IMG/VR virus record: IMGVR_UViG_3300025483_000090
Span: 1 to 20,702 of that record
Strand: one strand, 5' to 3'
Source of the DNA: a virus
DNA: 20,702 nucleotides
The notes under the pieces were generated by a model. That model was not told the DNA's origin, searched no databases, and saw only the letters and a program-made list of their open reading frames with translations. This document shows positions 10,326-17,740 of this stretch, one piece after another; positions within the stretch are counted from its first letter, which is position 1, and the number at the start of each line of letters is the position of its first letter. Both the position numbers and the translations under genes were made by a program.

Positions 10326-11667
10326 TGAAGAATACTTTCGCAAAGTAGTTCCTTTCCTGAAGAAAGAATACTTTCAAGAACCAGTAGAGCAATACATCTT
10401 TGAAGAAATCAGCGACTTTGCTTCTACATATGATAAGTTTCCTACCAAGGAAGTTTTAATCATCAACTTGCAACAAAGAAATGACCTCACTGAAGAAACT
10501 TATAAAAAGACTGTTTCGCAGATCGACACCCTCACAGACGAGTGGGTTGATACCAGATGGCTCACAGACACCACTGAAAAATGGTGTCAGGAACGTGCAG
10601 TCTACAACGCCCTCCTACGGTCGATCAAGATCGCAGATGGAGGCGATTCAGAGGTATCACCAGGGGCGATCCCAGGTATCTTACAAGAAGCCCTGGCAGT
10701 ATCTTTCGACGAAAACATCGGACACGACTACGTACAAAATGTAAAAGATAGATACGATTACTATCACCTTGAAGAGCACAAGATTCCCTTTGATATTGAT
10801 AAGTTGAATCTAATCACCAAGGGTGGTATTCCTAACAAGACACTTAACGTTGCTCTTGCTGGTACAGGTGTTGGTAAGTCACTATTCATGTGTCATATGG
10901 CAGCTGCCTGTCTCTCTATTGGATTTAATGTGCTGTACATTACAATGGAGATGGCAGAAGAAAAGATTGCTGAACGTATTGACTCCAACTTATTGAATGT
11001 CAATATTCAAGACATCGGTTCAATACCAGAAGACATCTTTACATCAAGAGTTAATGAGATTGGTAGGAAGTCTCAAGGTAAGTTGATTATCAAAGAGTAT
11101 CCTACTGCTGCTGCACACGTAGGACACTTTGAGTCACTATTAAGTGACCTGTCATTGAAGAAAGATTTTAGACCTAACATTGTGTTTATAGACTATCTAA
11201 ATATCTGTGCTTCTGCTCGCTATAAGGGACACATTGTTAACTCTTACACCTATGTCAAAGCGATTGCAGAAGAACTTCGTGGTCTTGCGGTCAAGCATGA
11301 TCTACCTGTGTTCACTGCTACTCAAACTACTCGGAGTGGTTTTGGTAATAGTGATGTTGACCTTACAGATACTAGTGAATCTTTTGGTCTTCCCGCTACT
11401 GCCGATCTTATGCTTGCTCTCATATCTACTGAAGAGTTAGAGCAGTCAGGTCGTATCATGATCAAGCAACTCAAGAACCGATACAACGATGCTGCCTACT
11501 ACAGACGCTTCACTGTAGGCATTGACAGATCAAAAATGAAGCTGTATAATGTTGATGATTCTGAAGGTGATATCACGTCCGACCAAGAGGACGAGACATA
11601 CGAAGCACTTGAAGAAATCTCAACCAAACAATCAAGACTAGATAAATTCTCCCAATTTGTAATATGA
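10279..11667 (+). CDS. 41: Replicative DNA helicase, DnaB-like (T4 gp41)
   Basis: 462 residues from ATG 10279 (T4 gp41 is 475); the TTG three bases upstream is unlikely. The N-terminus ([23 protein letters not shown]) matches the gp41 entry helices. The RecA-type motor carries Walker A GTGVGKS (195-201, K200), a [14 protein letters not shown] segment, Walker B IVFIDYLN (D305), and an ATQTTRSG motif. It should form the 5'-3' hexameric ring that unwinds the fork and pairs with primase gp61 at the end of this window. It overlaps uvsX by 47 nt and mazG by 4 nt. Confidence 0.95.
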
Positions 11668-12068
11668 CCGTAGATTTCAATCGTTATGAAGAGTTTGTGG
11701 CAGCAGTCACTAGCGAATCTTCAACAAACTTTGTTGACTTTGCTGATAGGATTGGCGAGCTTGATCGTCAGGGTGCCAATATTGAGCGTCTCCTTACTAG
11801 TGGTGTTGGGATTAATGCTGAAGGTGGTGAGTTCCTTGAGATCATTAAGAAGATGGTCTTCCAAGGAAAACCATGGAACGAAGATAATCGTGAGCATCTC
11901 ATTATTGAGTTGGGTGATATTATGTGGTATGTTGCTCAAGCTACAATGGCACTTGATATTTCCTTCGATGAGGTAATCGAGACCAATGTCAACAAACTGA
12001 AGAAGCGTTACCCTGGTGGTGAGTTCAATGTTCACAACTCTGAAGTTCGTGCAGTAGGCGATCGTTAA
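11664..12068 (+). CDS. mazG: MazG-like nucleoside triphosphate pyrophosphohydrolase
   Basis: 134 residues. The all-alpha NTP pyrophosphatase signature is clear: E53-GGE56-FLE59, an FQGKPW loop, then E82-L-G-D85-IMWYVAQA, which supplies the metal-binding carboxylates. It hydrolyses (d)NTPs to monophosphates. Cyanophage MazG was proposed to lower (p)ppGpp, but dGTP/dCTP-type substrates have been reported for cyanophage enzymes; sequence alone does not decide this. It is coupled to helicase 41 by an ATGA overlap and followed by a weak hairpin, so it ends the replication operon. Confidence 0.92.
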   Translation: MTVDFNRYEEFVAAVTSESSTNFVDFADRIGELDRQGANIERLLTSGVGINAEGGEFLEIIKKMVFQGKPWNEDNREHLIIELGDIMWYVAQATMALDISFDEVIETNVNKLKKRYPGGEFNVHNSEVRAVGDR

Positions 12069-12138: not shown

Positions 12139-12347
12139 TGATCAATCTTCACGAACGATACGGGCACTACCTCCACACAAATAAAAAGCATGAAATCACT
12201 GGAGAAAGAGTGTTAACGTATGGTTGGGAGGATGATGGTTCTAAACTTATTGGTTACTATGTGATCACCGAAAATCATAAGATGCTATTTTGTCCCAAAG
12301 GAAATTTAAAAAGCAAGGAAGCGTGGCAGAGCGGTTTATCGCGTTAG
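12138..12347 (+). CDS. Small hypothetical protein whose 3' end runs into tRNA-Ser
   Basis: 69 residues (MINLHERYGHYLHTNKKHEI...). The body looks protein-like, with hydrophobic strands (KLIGYYVITENHKMLFCP) between polar turns, but the last ten residues are translated from the acceptor and D-arm of tRNA-Ser and the stop lies within the tRNA. Either the native C-terminus was replaced when the tRNA gene arrived, or the ORF simply reads through. No strong promoter precedes it: a TGATAAAAT extended -10-like run at 12105-12113 lacks a -35 box. Function is unknown. Confidence 0.5.
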   Translation: MINLHERYGHYLHTNKKHEITGERVLTYGWEDDGSKLIGYYVITENHKMLFCPKGNLKSKEAWQSGLSR

Positions 12348-12403
12348 TCTTGAAAACTAATGTGTCTTCACGGGCACCGCTGGTTCAAATCCAGCCGCTT
12401 CCG
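12317..12403 (+). tRNA. tRNA-Ser (anticodon UGA)
   Basis: 87 nt. The acceptor stem GGAAGCG (12317-12323) pairs with CGCTTCC (12396-12402), with G discriminator at 12403. The anticodon stem TTAGT/ACTAA flanks loop CTTGAAA with anticodon TGA at 12351-12353. The T arm is GCTGG-TTCAAAT-CCAGC (12379-12395), and a long variable arm (about 12361-12378) is present, as required for serine tRNAs. CCA is not encoded and must be added by the host enzyme. It decodes UCA and probably other UCN codons, compensating for codon-usage differences between an A+T-rich phage and its host. It is a single tRNA with no other nearby. Confidence 0.95.
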
Positions 12404-12407
12404 TTCC

Positions 12408-12439
12408 ATCCTCCTCTAAATATTAGGGGAGGATTTTTT
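12408..12439 (+). terminator. Intrinsic terminator that also masks the next ribosome site
   Basis: A 12-bp stem (12408-12419 with 12423-12434, one T-G pair) closes a three-base ATA loop and is followed by Ts to 12439, a classic Rho-independent terminator directly after the tRNA. The 3' arm is TTAGGGGAGGAT, which contains the Shine-Dalgarno GGGGAGGA of the gene starting at 12440. Read-through transcripts would therefore have that site paired and closed. Confidence 0.85.
12415..12422 (+). promoter_or_regulatory. Probable T4-type late promoter inside the hairpin
   Basis: TCTAAATA matches TATAAATA at 7 of 8 positions and covers the top of the 5' arm and the loop of the terminator hairpin. With T4 spacing the start would be near 12428, giving a short mRNA leader that keeps GGAGGA but lacks the 5' arm of the stem, so the ribosome site would be open only in late transcripts. 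Confidence 0.5.
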
Positions 12440-14116
12440 ATGGCAATTCAACAAAAAAGCAAAAGATTCTTTTTGATGCAGGAATATGGGCAGAATGCTA
12501 TGCCTGATTTGCATCAAACTCAAATGAAAGCATTGATGGATGAGATCCCTGATGGAGCACAACTGTGGAATGATCCACAAAAATGGGATGGAAAAAACTG
12601 GCCAAATAGAGATCCGAAAAAAGACGGTTCACTTGGAACTCCAAAACAAATTTTAATAAAGAGTGACTCTGGAACTATTAATATAATTGGAGACTATTAT
12701 TCTAAAGGACAGCAACGCAAACGTTTGATTCAATATAAAGCACATGATATTGTGTCAATCAAATTTAATTTTGGTATGACTACCAAAATGAAAGGAAGGA
12801 GAAGTGTTAAAGTAGAACAACCAGCGCAGGTAGTTACATTTAAAGCGACTGGAAAAACGTTGTCTGCTTCTGGTTCTGCTATATCAGCTTCAACGATGAC
12901 TGCTATGCAGGAGTTGGGAACTCTGTGGATATTCAGACAAGTCATTCAAGAAAATAAAAAATTTAGGAAGTGGCAAGACATTAAAAAGGATGATGATACA
13001 TTCAATGAGTTAAAAAAAATCTGGAGTCTCCTTGGAGATGTAGAAACAGGACCTGAAGACAAGTGGTTGGAAATTTTCTATAAACAGAACAAAGTTTTTA
13101 TGGAAAAAATGAGTGACCCTAAAATAAAATTGCTTGAAGAGTTTAACCGGGGTTCTAAACACGCGGGTGGAAAACAATATACTATTCCTGGATCATCTTC
13201 CTCGTCACAAACGTTTATGGAATTTATTTCTGACCATGTAAAACAGTACGGCATTTCCCAGAAAGATAACTGGAATCCTGCTGATATTTGGTTAATTAAA
13301 AATGAAGACACCTGGAGAGATATAATAACACGACAGAGTTCGGTTGAAGGTGGATCTAGTCCTGCTAGTATGGCGCATAATCTACAGCAGTGTAATGCTA
13401 TTTTGCGTGAAGCTTGGTCAAAGCATGAGATCATAGGAATATCTTTGAAAGCAATTGGGCGAGGAGATGAGGCTAGGTGGGAAGCTGTTAATACAACTGT
13501 AGAGTTTGTCAATCAAAGAAGCGATCTTAACTTTAAGAAAACATTTAAACTTGATGAGATTAGATGTTTTTTACAAATTGATAAGAATGGCACAGTTACA
13601 CAAGACAGTTGGGTTTACATTAATAATGGAAAAACTACTTACAAGTTTCAAGTAAAAGCAAACAGTAGTTCAGACAGAAGTGGATCCGGACTTAAGTATG
13701 AGGGTCAACAGGAAGGAGCAACTGCTGCTAGATTGGGCAAAGCAACTGTTGATCTATTGATGGATCTTATGAGTGAAGCAGGTATACCATTTGATAAAAA
13801 TAAAACCAGTTATCCAATAACTGTTGAGCAGTTGATGGAAGAAGAAAAAGATTACAAAAAGAATCTGGAGACCCTTGCTTCCAACCGTGTTAAGTTAAGT
13901 AAAGATGGTACTCAAAGTGCCACAGCCGCCTATGACGCTCTGCTATACTTGATGAATCGAGAACCGTGGGTGGCAAACTCCAGATGTCAGCAGATCACTT
14001 GGTTGTGTCAACTATTAAAACTACAGGGACAGAAGCAACAAGAATTTTTAGCAGACTTGGTATTTCTTTCTAAAAAAGAAGGAAAAAGATACGGACCTTT
14101 CGGAAAAATTTACTGA
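12440..14116 (+). CDS. Unknown 558-residue protein (weak nuclease-like pattern)
   Basis: The start is ATG 12440, with GGGGAGGA 6 nt upstream; extending to 12290 would translate the tRNA gene and is rejected. I recognise no family with confidence. The middle contains NPADIW (279-284) followed about 50 residues later by GISLK (333-337). This spaced acidic residue and lysine in hydrophobic strands recalls PD-(D/E)xK-type nucleases, but no complete motif is visible. A serine-rich linker (GSSSSSQ) and a KLSKDGTQSATAAYDALLYL segment follow. It shares one base with the next gene and starts a four-gene overlapping run, apparently under late control. Ordinary alternatives are a structural or DNA-packaging accessory protein. 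Confidence 0.75.
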   Translation: MAIQQKSKRFFLMQEYGQNAMPDLHQTQMKALMDEIPDGAQLWNDPQKWDGKNWPNRDPKKDGSLGTPKQILIKSDSGTINIIGDYYSKGQQRKRLIQYKAHDIVSIKFNFGMTTKMKGRRSVKVEQPAQVVTFKATGKTLSASGSAISASTMTAMQELGTLWIFRQVIQENKKFRKWQDIKKDDDTFNELKKIWSLLGDVETGPEDKWLEIFYKQNKVFMEKMSDPKIKLLEEFNRGSKHAGGKQYTIPGSSSSSQTFMEFISDHVKQYGISQKDNWNPADIWLIKNEDTWRDIITRQSSVEGGSSPASMAHNLQQCNAILREAWSKHEIIGISLKAIGRGDEARWEAVNTTVEFVNQRSDLNFKKTFKLDEIRCFLQIDKNGTVTQDSWVYINNGKTTYKFQVKANSSSDRSGSGLKYEGQQEGATAARLGKATVDLLMDLMSEAGIPFDKNKTSYPITVEQLMEEEKDYKKNLETLASNRVKLSKDGTQSATAAYDALLYLMNREPWVANSRCQQITWLCQLLKLQGQKQQEFLADLVFLSKKEGKRYGPFGKIY

Positions 14117-15348
14117 TGTCAAAGAACACACACCTAGAACACATTGAAGATCTCATGTTAATGTTTGGTGAGAGTGGGGTAAAAGAATCTTTCGATTACA
14201 TTGATGATTTAGTGAGGACTTTTTCTGGAGATCCTAAAAATAGTAGGAAGTTCTCTACAAAATGGGATGGATCGCCTGCTATTTTTTGTGGACCTGATCC
14301 TGAAGATGGTCAGTTCTTTGTGGCAAAAAAAGGAATCTTCAACAAAACTCCCCAGTTGTTTAAGAGTCTTGATGAAATTCAGAATGATAAAATTGCTGAA
14401 GGTTTGAAGAAAGTATTTACATATGTGTTCAAATATATGAAACCTTTGTATGATAGCGGAAAGTTGAAGGACGTTGTTCAGGGAGACTTTCTTTATCACG
14501 AAGGAACCAGAAAAGTTGTGCGAGATGTTCACGGCGAAGACTGTGTAATTTTTAAACCACAACTTATTAGTTATTGTATTCCAGACCACGATGATTTATA
14601 TGATGCTGCTAAATCTTGTAAGGTGTGTGTAGTAATTCACGCAAAATATCCAACCAACAATGCAACAACGGTACAAGATCTTTCTGTAAATTTTGGTTTT
14701 GATGCCTCTGAACATTCAACTAAAGATCTTCTTATACTAACGCCTTTCACATCCGAACTTGGCAGGGAGATGATGATTACAAAATCAGAAAAAAATAAAT
14801 TGATTTTGTGGAAAAAATCTGCTATGGTATTACTCCCCAAGTGCAAGTCTTTTCTTAATGAAATTGCTCCATCTCACAATGATTCTTGGGGTATGGCATA
14901 TTTTCTTAAGCAATACTTCAATGCCAAGGTAAGAGAAGGTAAGAAAGTTGGTAGCGCAAACAAGTTTTATGAGGAGTATGTAAACTATTGGGAGGAAAAA
15001 TTTCGTAAGAAATATTCTTCTCTGAAGCAACCACCAAAGATTGCTGAATGGAAATCGAGAATGTATGAAGGTATGAAACTTCTTGAGAAAAATAAATCTC
15101 AATTCATTGCAATGGTTGGACTATATAATACAATCCAGAATATTAAGAACATTTTTGTTCCTAAATTAGAAAAGGGTGAACGGTTTAGAACATATTATTA
15201 TGATGAAAAAACTGGAACTTATGAAATTGGTAATCAAGAAGGGTACGTTGCTATTCGCGAGTCGAATAATGCAGTGAAGTTGGTACAACGTCTTGGTGGA
15301 TTTAGTCAACGCAACTTTGAAGAGATAAAATCCTGGGCTAAAAAATGA
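14116..15348 (+). CDS. KxDG-motif protein, nucleotidyltransferase/ligase-like
   Basis: 410 residues. STK49-W-D-G52-SPAIF matches motif I (KxDG) of covalent nucleotidyltransferases such as DNA/RNA ligases and capping enzymes, where the lysine carries AMP or GMP. VVQGDFLYHEG (122-130) could correspond to the motif III acidic strand, and CVIFKPQLISYCIP to a later core strand; motif V (KxK) is not certain. The protein belongs to a type I recognise from marine T4-like phages, where function is unassigned. A ligase-like reaction is inference from motif I and spacing. Start and stop overlap both neighbours (1 nt upstream, 4 nt downstream), so it is co-expressed with the 558-residue protein and the nucleotidylyltransferase. 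Confidence 0.75.
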   Translation: MSKNTHLEHIEDLMLMFGESGVKESFDYIDDLVRTFSGDPKNSRKFSTKWDGSPAIFCGPDPEDGQFFVAKKGIFNKTPQLFKSLDEIQNDKIAEGLKKVFTYVFKYMKPLYDSGKLKDVVQGDFLYHEGTRKVVRDVHGEDCVIFKPQLISYCIPDHDDLYDAAKSCKVCVVIHAKYPTNNATTVQDLSVNFGFDASEHSTKDLLILTPFTSELGREMMITKSEKNKLILWKKSAMVLLPKCKSFLNEIAPSHNDSWGMAYFLKQYFNAKVREGKKVGSANKFYEEYVNYWEEKFRKKYSSLKQPPKIAEWKSRMYEGMKLLEKNKSQFIAMVGLYNTIQNIKNIFVPKLEKGERFRTYYYDEKTGTYEIGNQEGYVAIRESNNAVKLVQRLGGFSQRNFEEIKSWAKK

Positions 15349-15896
15349 AGAGAGTAGTATTTACTTGGGGTAGATTTAATCCTCCAACAATCGGTCACGA
15401 AAAACTTATTGAAAAAGTTGCATCGATTGCTGGTAGCGATGACTACTTCATATATCCTACTCACACTCATAAAAAACCTAAAGATCCATTGCCATCAGAT
15501 AAAAAAGTCGAATGGATGAAGATGATTTATCCCCAGCATGCGAGATATATAATTTATGATAGAGAAATAAATACCTTTATCAAACTGCTTCAAAAATTGC
15601 AAGTAGATTATGATGATGTAGTATGGGTTGCTGGATCTGATAGAGTTTCTTCTTATCAGGATCTTCTTAAAAAATATAATGGAACAGAGTTTTCATTTAG
15701 AAATGCAGAATGTGTATCTGCAGGTGAAAGAGATCCAGATGCTGATGGTGCTGCTGGTATGTCGGCTAGTAAAATGAGAGCAGCTGCAGAAAAAGTAGAG
15801 ACAAGTAAATTTATGAGCGGTATTCCAGATACATTATCTGTCAAACAAAAACTAGAACTAATGGAAGATGTACGTAATGGTATGGGGTTGAAATGA
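15345..15896 (+). CDS. Nucleotidylyltransferase, cytidylyl/NMN-adenylyltransferase-like
   Basis: 183 residues in a Rossmann-like HUP fold. The N-terminal VVFTWGRFNPPTIGHEKLI has the (H/T)xGH nucleotide-binding motif as TIGH (15-18). VWVAGSDR (about 94-100) is the second phosphate-binding strand, and MSASKMR (139-145) matches the ISxTxxR-type signature. These enzymes transfer AMP or CMP from a nucleoside triphosphate to a phosphate-bearing partner, with release of pyrophosphate. NMN adenylyltransferase (NAD synthesis) is a reasonable guess for a short single-domain protein, but substrate cannot be fixed by eye. It overlaps both neighbours by 4 nt. Confidence 0.85.
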   Translation: MKRVVFTWGRFNPPTIGHEKLIEKVASIAGSDDYFIYPTHTHKKPKDPLPSDKKVEWMKMIYPQHARYIIYDREINTFIKLLQKLQVDYDDVVWVAGSDRVSSYQDLLKKYNGTEFSFRNAECVSAGERDPDADGAAGMSASKMRAAAEKVETSKFMSGIPDTLSVKQKLELMEDVRNGMGLK

Positions 15897-17702: not shown

Positions 17703-17733
17703 GGGAGGGGTATATTGCCTCTCCCTTTTTTTT
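17703..17733 (+). terminator. Intrinsic terminator after the 66-residue gene
   Basis: GGGAGGGG (17703-17710) pairs with CCTCTCCC (17718-17725, one G-T pair) across a seven-base loop, followed by eight Ts (17726-17733). The last T is the first base of the next late promoter. Confidence 0.9.
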
Positions 17734-17740
17734 ATAAATA
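17733..17740 (+). promoter_or_regulatory. T4-type late promoter for the Ig-like gene (exact octamer)
   Basis: A perfect TATAAATA starts at the last base of the terminator's T run. Predicted start is near 17746, leaving a ~27-nt leader with GGAGAT (17764-17769) placed correctly before ATG 17773. Confidence 0.8.

Follow-up and report, generated by a model that had tools for sequence, protein, structure and literature searches.

Background

A lock-and-escape control of translation is used by the T4 genes e, soc, 49 and I-TevI and by mobE of phage Aeh1 (PMC2988022, PMC3014915). The reason proposed for it is that a potentially harmful late enzyme or endonuclease is kept off early RNA (PMC2988022, PMC3014915), and by analogy this reason would also fit the cyanophage genes described below. 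The original prediction for the locus studied here had invoked the logic of e, soc and I-TevI, and the same regulatory logic is indeed described for these genes as well as for mobE (PMC2988022, PMC3014915). In e, soc, I-TevI and mobE, as proposed for the cyanophage locus, the Shine-Dalgarno (SD) sequence is hidden in a hairpin of early or middle read-through RNA, the late promoter is located in the DNA of the 5' strand so that this strand is missing from late RNA, and several of the genes encode endonucleases. Unlike in these systems, the cyanophage hairpin has the shape of a terminator, its T run is at the same time the spacer between SD and ATG, and the predicted late leader is only 12-18 nt long. 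The cyanophage element further differs in that it appears to be conserved at a single locus, as the port of many different genes.

T4-type phages also contain PeSL cassettes, which combine a stem-loop with an early promoter, occur as dispersed repeats and are linked to gene shuffling. The cyanophage unit is similar in that a stem-loop and a promoter are tied to gene shuffling, but its promoter is a late one placed within the stem, and the unit is found at one fixed locus. An assignment to the PeSL cassettes was rejected, since the unit carries a late octamer instead of an early (sigma-70) promoter and the strict pattern occurs only once in the genome of Synechococcus phage S-CAM3, namely at the tRNA-Ser site.

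Genomic context of the hairpin

The window, a stretch of 20,702 nt from an IMG/VR virus record, is a fragment of a T4-like cyanophage. The 3.2-kb stretch around the hairpin is matched by 49 phage records, all of which are cyanophages, with S-CAM3 (Kyanoviridae) as the top match (81% over 45% of the query). The gene order is gp43, a uvsX-like gene, gp41, mazG, an ORF of 69 aa (phrog_6312), tRNA-Ser, the hairpin, a gene encoding a 558-aa protein, DUF6267 and a cytidylyltransferase-like gene. An overview of the features around the hairpin is given in Table 1. The product of the T4-GC190 family was detected in S-SM1 virions (PMC3037559). Downstream of the cytidylyltransferase-like gene, genes with ordinary late promoters are encoded, including a head protein gene. 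The latter is preceded by an ordinary tandem (17703-17740) of a terminator (GGGAGGGGTATATTGCCTCTCCC, T8) and, immediately behind it, the late octamer TATAAATA, which is thus located outside the terminator hairpin.

The tRNA was the only match in an Rfam search. The DUF6267 protein contains the sequence KWDGSPAIF, which recalls motif I of ATP-dependent ligases and nucleotidyltransferases; a PDB sequence search for a ligase-like nucleotidyltransferase gave no match.

Table 1 Features of the hairpin locus in the window
Feature	Position	Strand	Remarks
mazG pyrophosphatase gene	11664..12068	+	constant gene left of the slot
tRNA-Ser(TGA)	12317..12403	+	incidental neighbour of the hairpin; present in 6/63 loci with the element
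Composite hairpin	12408..12434	+	12 bp, 3-nt loop, 27 bases; homologous hairpin in about 60 mazG-anchored loci
Late-promoter octamer TCTAAATA	12415..12422	+	five bases in the 5' arm, three in the loop; 7/8 match to the T4 octamer
Shine-Dalgarno sequence GGGGAGGA	12426..12433	+	in the 3' arm; pairs with the 5' arm in read-through RNA
Predicted late transcription start	12428	+	octamer end + 6, from the T4 -13/-6 rule (PMC1524935)
T run (T6)	12434..12439	+	terminator tail and SD-to-ATG spacer at once; ATG at 12440
Slot gene, 558 aa (phrog_1462, unknown function)	12440..14116	+	invariant W.PADIW...GxSLK signature; putative PD-(D/E)XK nuclease by motif only
DUF6267 (PF19782) gene	14116..15348	+	constant gene right of the slot; homologous in every locus pair compared
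Cytidylyltransferase-like gene (T4-GC190 family)	15345..15896	+	

Sequence and fold of the hairpin

The hairpin consists of the 5' arm ATCCTCCTCTAA (12408-12419), the loop ATA (12420-12422) and the 3' arm TTAGGGGAGGAT (12423-12434), with one T-G among its 12 pairs. The RNA of positions 12395-12460 has a minimum free energy of -19.4 kcal/mol (z -3.4), and 0 of 200 shuffled sequences were equally stable. Among the terminator-like sites of the window, the hairpin is listed second. The sequence confirms the hairpin as it had originally been described, with a 12-bp stem, a T run, the SD in the 3' arm and an octamer that agrees with that of T4 at seven of eight bases.

Conservation of the element in relatives

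A single-sequence search of IMG/VR with the 558-aa protein retrieved one near-copy only. For this reason, relatives were gathered from IMG/VR with mazG as the anchor, in addition to a pattern scan. To lessen circularity, the mazG loci were anchored on SD, T run and ATG alone, leaving the octamer unused. In 62 of 62 loci selected in this way, a list that excludes mazG loci already seen to be without a hairpin or ending too early, TCTAAATA is located within the hairpin; these loci represent 27 distinct 30-mers. Conservation of both arms and of the octamer had been proposed as a check of the original prediction, and it is borne out by the octamer in all of these loci and by the homologous hairpins.

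Two main forms of the element can be distinguished, A (CCTCCTCTAAATAnTAGGGGAGG) and B (CCTCCCCTCTAAATAGTTAGACGGGAGG), the latter with TCTAA paired to TTAGA. Of the 22 non-SD columns of form B, 7 are variable, none of them among the 8 octamer columns, and the variable ones include some pairing partners of the octamer; the test on the octamer columns is weak alone (P about 0.02 in form B and 0.26 in form A, which is too uniform to test). The first octamer base, the only position left free by the promoter, pairs as T-A, T-G, A-T, G-C or C-G across 73 elements, and these changes read as compensation.

Similar designs are found outside the two main forms. In a second design (L072-L074), the octamer AATAAATA is located upstream of CCCCTATAGGGG-T7-ATG, which places the predicted transcription start in the loop, past the 5' arm; the design in L065 is similar. 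At L065:2330-2365 and L072:3730-3764, the hairpin downstream of the late octamer is a CCCC/GGGG terminator hairpin, again with the predicted start in the loop. As a hairpin of terminator, octamer and SD, CCTCCGCTAAATACAGCTGGAGGCTTTTTAATG or a close variant of it is also present in four unrelated contigs (L088, L101, L197 and L200). The hairpin of one of them (L101:4072-4270) lies at the boundary of a Clp-like ATPase gene and virion/tail genes. Taken together, the compensatory changes and the recurrence of the same design in unrelated contigs argue for function rather than mere homology.

A few relatives (L060, L066, L076, L085, P-HM2 and S-RIM14) have the late promoter only and no lock. Late expression would accordingly be the constant part and the SD lock an addition, which appears to be inessential in some relatives. 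In P-HM2 (L207:1240-1270), the end of TCTAAATA is separated by 5 nt from the start codon ATG of the slot gene PHM2_161, so that the predicted late mRNA is leaderless.

Probable late-promoter octamer

The window itself contains 37 octamers with one mismatch or none, compared with 29.8 expected, and by itself the octamer in the window is weak evidence. This frequency would suit a terminator hairpin that merely doubles as a mask of the SD, the octamer being a chance feature of its A/T-rich top. Such a coincidence is very improbable in view of the relatives. The octamer is invariant in all 62 loci of the octamer-independent selection, while other bases of the hairpin vary, and it persists where the hairpin is missing or differently built. 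Moreover, hairpins with TAAATA followed by a T run and ATG account for 52 of 119 database matches, as opposed to 0 of 120 for the reversed core (ATAAAT) in the same setting; this control overlaps the test in some loci, as ATAAATA contains both cores, and amounts to 0 of 67 without those loci. The conservation of the octamer across relatives thus seems to be far more than chance would produce.

In T4, the late octamer is located at -13 to -6 (PMC1524935). Late promoters of S-PM2 were described as NATAAATA (PMC2984593), a form that would rule out the C at position 2 of TCTAAATA, while those of Aeh1 use CTAAATA (PMC1524935). In the S-CAM3 genome, the coding strand carries 53 copies of ATAAATA and the opposite strand 3; for CTAAATA, the numbers are 18 and 4. 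GTAAATA (14/15) and TTAAATA (12/15) are without bias. Since CTAAATA is strand-biased and is also found upstream of gp3 and of a baseplate hub gene, the C at position 2 is best read as real, and CTAAATA as a genuine minority late-promoter variant in the S-CAM3 clade.

A presumably late gene is thus preceded, on the coding strand, by an octamer that nearly matches TATAAATA. With the T4-type late promoters, including the variants of S-PM2 and Aeh1, the locus shares the octamer, the geometry, the purine start and the coding-strand bias; it differs from their consensus in the minority C at position 2 and in being buried in a terminator stem. The late promoter of the original prediction is therefore supported by comparison and folding, that is, by the invariant octamer, by the strand bias of CTAAATA and by a predicted +1 that is always a purine beside the SD.

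Predicted Shine-Dalgarno lock and start geometry

The predicted late start in the window coincides with the first G of GGAGG. The predicted late mRNA begins with GGAGGAUUUUUUAUGG and has a leader of 12 nt. Across the elements, the predicted +1 falls at positions from one base within the scored SD window to 3 nt ahead of it and is a purine (A or G) in each of the 73 elements; the late leader measures 12-18 nt in all elements but one.

Folding in silico gives an SD opening cost of 16.7 kcal/mol for the read-through RNA of the window and of 2.6 kcal/mol for its late RNA, in which A-U pairing is predicted to leave some structure (-6.4 kcal/mol over 53 nt). The respective medians over the 73 elements are 13.9 and 2.4 kcal/mol (in silico), and the difference exceeds 4 kcal/mol in each of them. 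In silico, the SD is therefore paired in upstream-initiated RNA and free in late RNA, both in the window and in 73/73 elements, and folding supports the SD lock that had been suggested. A general design for all late genes was rejected, as a scan of S-CAM3 flagged only three sites at which pairing of the SD with sequence before the +1 is relieved in late RNA.

Probable terminator and tRNA

The hairpin has the form of an intrinsic terminator (a G+C-rich stem of at least 5 bp with an immediate T run), with 12 bp and T6 in the window. This form is kept in the relatives, and a T run of at least 3 is retained in all elements. The spacers between SD and ATG of other SD-bearing genes in S-CAM3, in contrast, are A-rich and, with a single exception, have T runs of 0-2, and the T run is therefore a feature of the hairpin element. 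Both observations speak for the terminator that had been predicted.

As the T run ends directly before the AUG, it might instead represent a T-rich spacer, and for marine cyanobacteria intrinsic termination has been little characterised. The locus could then be a late promoter with an SD-masking hairpin as in T4 e, soc and I-TevI, in which the hairpin does not terminate and the T run is an unstructured spacer, and the T4 precedents were described without termination (PMC2988022, PMC3014915). We consider this unlikely, given that a T run directly follows a stable G+C-rich stem in all elements, in contrast to the A-rich spacers of S-CAM3, and that other late promoters of the clade likewise come after canonical terminators.

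The 3' processing of the tRNA, in contrast, which had been included in the original design, does not hold as a part of it. Just 6 of 63 elements come after a tRNA, the others being located behind ORFs or intergenic DNA, and tRNA processing therefore falls outside the conserved design.

Swap slot between mazG and DUF6267

The gene behind the element occupies a slot in which genes are exchanged. Slot genes of about 340-560 aa belong to six cyanophage families without mutual BLAST similarity at the threshold used. In locus pairs with mazG at least 95% identical, the slot genes lack detectable homology in 52%, while DUF6267 is homologous in 417 of 417 comparable pairs. In 6 of 6 locus pairs, identity is 90-99% over the 200 nt preceding the ATG, and no alignment is obtained over the first 400 nt of the slot gene itself. 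The hypervariable slot is seen at 12440-14116 of the window and in L008-L087. Homologues of the window gene are found at the same place in several isolates, next to mazG and the DUF6267 and cytidylyltransferase genes. The wide conservation of the element and the gene-swap slot behind it are two larger facts that the original prediction had missed.

The abrupt end of sequence identity at the ATG in swapped pairs would also be expected if the element were mainly a recombination or homing landmark, kept because slot genes swap through it, with regulation as a secondary role; in addition, I-Ssp6803I, a homing endonuclease, is one of the PD-(D/E)XK enzymes to which the structure model of one slot family is similar. 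Forms A and B, however, differ in sequence and yet retain the octamer, the stem, the SD position and the T run, and the compensatory changes and the same design in unrelated contigs also speak against a mere landmark, which we regard as improbable.

Products of the slot genes

The family of the window gene has the signature W.PADIW...GxSLK, in which D282 and S335-L336-K337 are invariant among 10 relatives and a serine takes the acidic position. The family of the S-CAM3 slot gene shows KADLA...SHKKG with invariant D and SxK positions, and most members of slot family A2 have TDITL...YLSVK. By eye, PTDVLV...LGLSAK, GVDSLFL...ISSK and SADLIV...GLSLKKK were found in the remaining families. These D...SxK signatures resemble those of PD-(D/E)XK nucleases, the acidic residue being replaced by serine.

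An AlphaFold model of an A2 protein (pLDDT 72) has its best matches in HinP1I (Z 8.8), I-Ssp6803I (5.5), SwaI (5.3) and Holliday resolvases; the Foldseek E-values of this model are above 0.2 and thus non-significant. The model of the 558-aa protein of the window is of low confidence (pLDDT 65) and has no convincing match, and sequence searches of this protein against Pfam, NCBIfam and the PDB returned no meaningful match. Polymerase beta and SpoT-like chains were weak matches of this model (Z under 5) and were not used. In view of the A2 matches and the poor model of the window protein, a nuclease identity is likely for some slot families, whereas for the window gene it is suggested at the level of the motif.

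Proposed mechanism

The hairpin is probably a compact early/late boundary element that unites a terminator, an SD lock and an internal late promoter and acts as the port of a swap slot. After transcribing the early replication genes (gp43, uvsX, gp41, mazG), RNA polymerase would reach the predicted intrinsic terminator. Any read-through RNA would fold the hairpin and bury the SD, so that the next gene is proposed to be untranslated early in infection. At the late stage, gp55, the phage sigma factor, would direct the polymerase to initiate at the octamer that overlaps the 5' arm and the loop. The resulting RNA would start at the SD or at most 3 nt from it and lack the 5' arm; neither hairpin nor terminator would form, and the leader of 12-18 nt could be translated. 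The late operon behind the element (DUF6267, cytidylyltransferase), which includes a virion protein, would be switched on at the same time. In this way, the element, located where the early replication genes meet the late operon, may serve as a fixed expression port that silences a possibly harmful nuclease until late.

More tentatively, and with somewhat less than even confidence, the hairpin may control, as a fixed port, a slot of T4-like cyanophages in which endonucleases of the PD-(D/E)XK type are exchanged for one another, perhaps by intronless homing or phage-phage exclusion. Each of them would be silenced early and released late.

The lock-and-escape logic itself is already known. What appears new is that this logic is combined with a terminator, that the leader is very short, that the unit is conserved among cyanophages and that it is used as the fixed port of a hypervariable slot that probably encodes endonucleases; none of these four features was found in the literature searched. 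If the proposed mechanism is true, cyanophages, which are without homologues of alt, modA, modB, motA and asiA, would separate early from late expression by a triple-purpose element of 27 bases. The element also predicts an exact late start site. In addition, a hypervariable locus in abundant marine viruses is exposed, the products of which appear endonuclease-like and were previously annotated only as hypothetical proteins.
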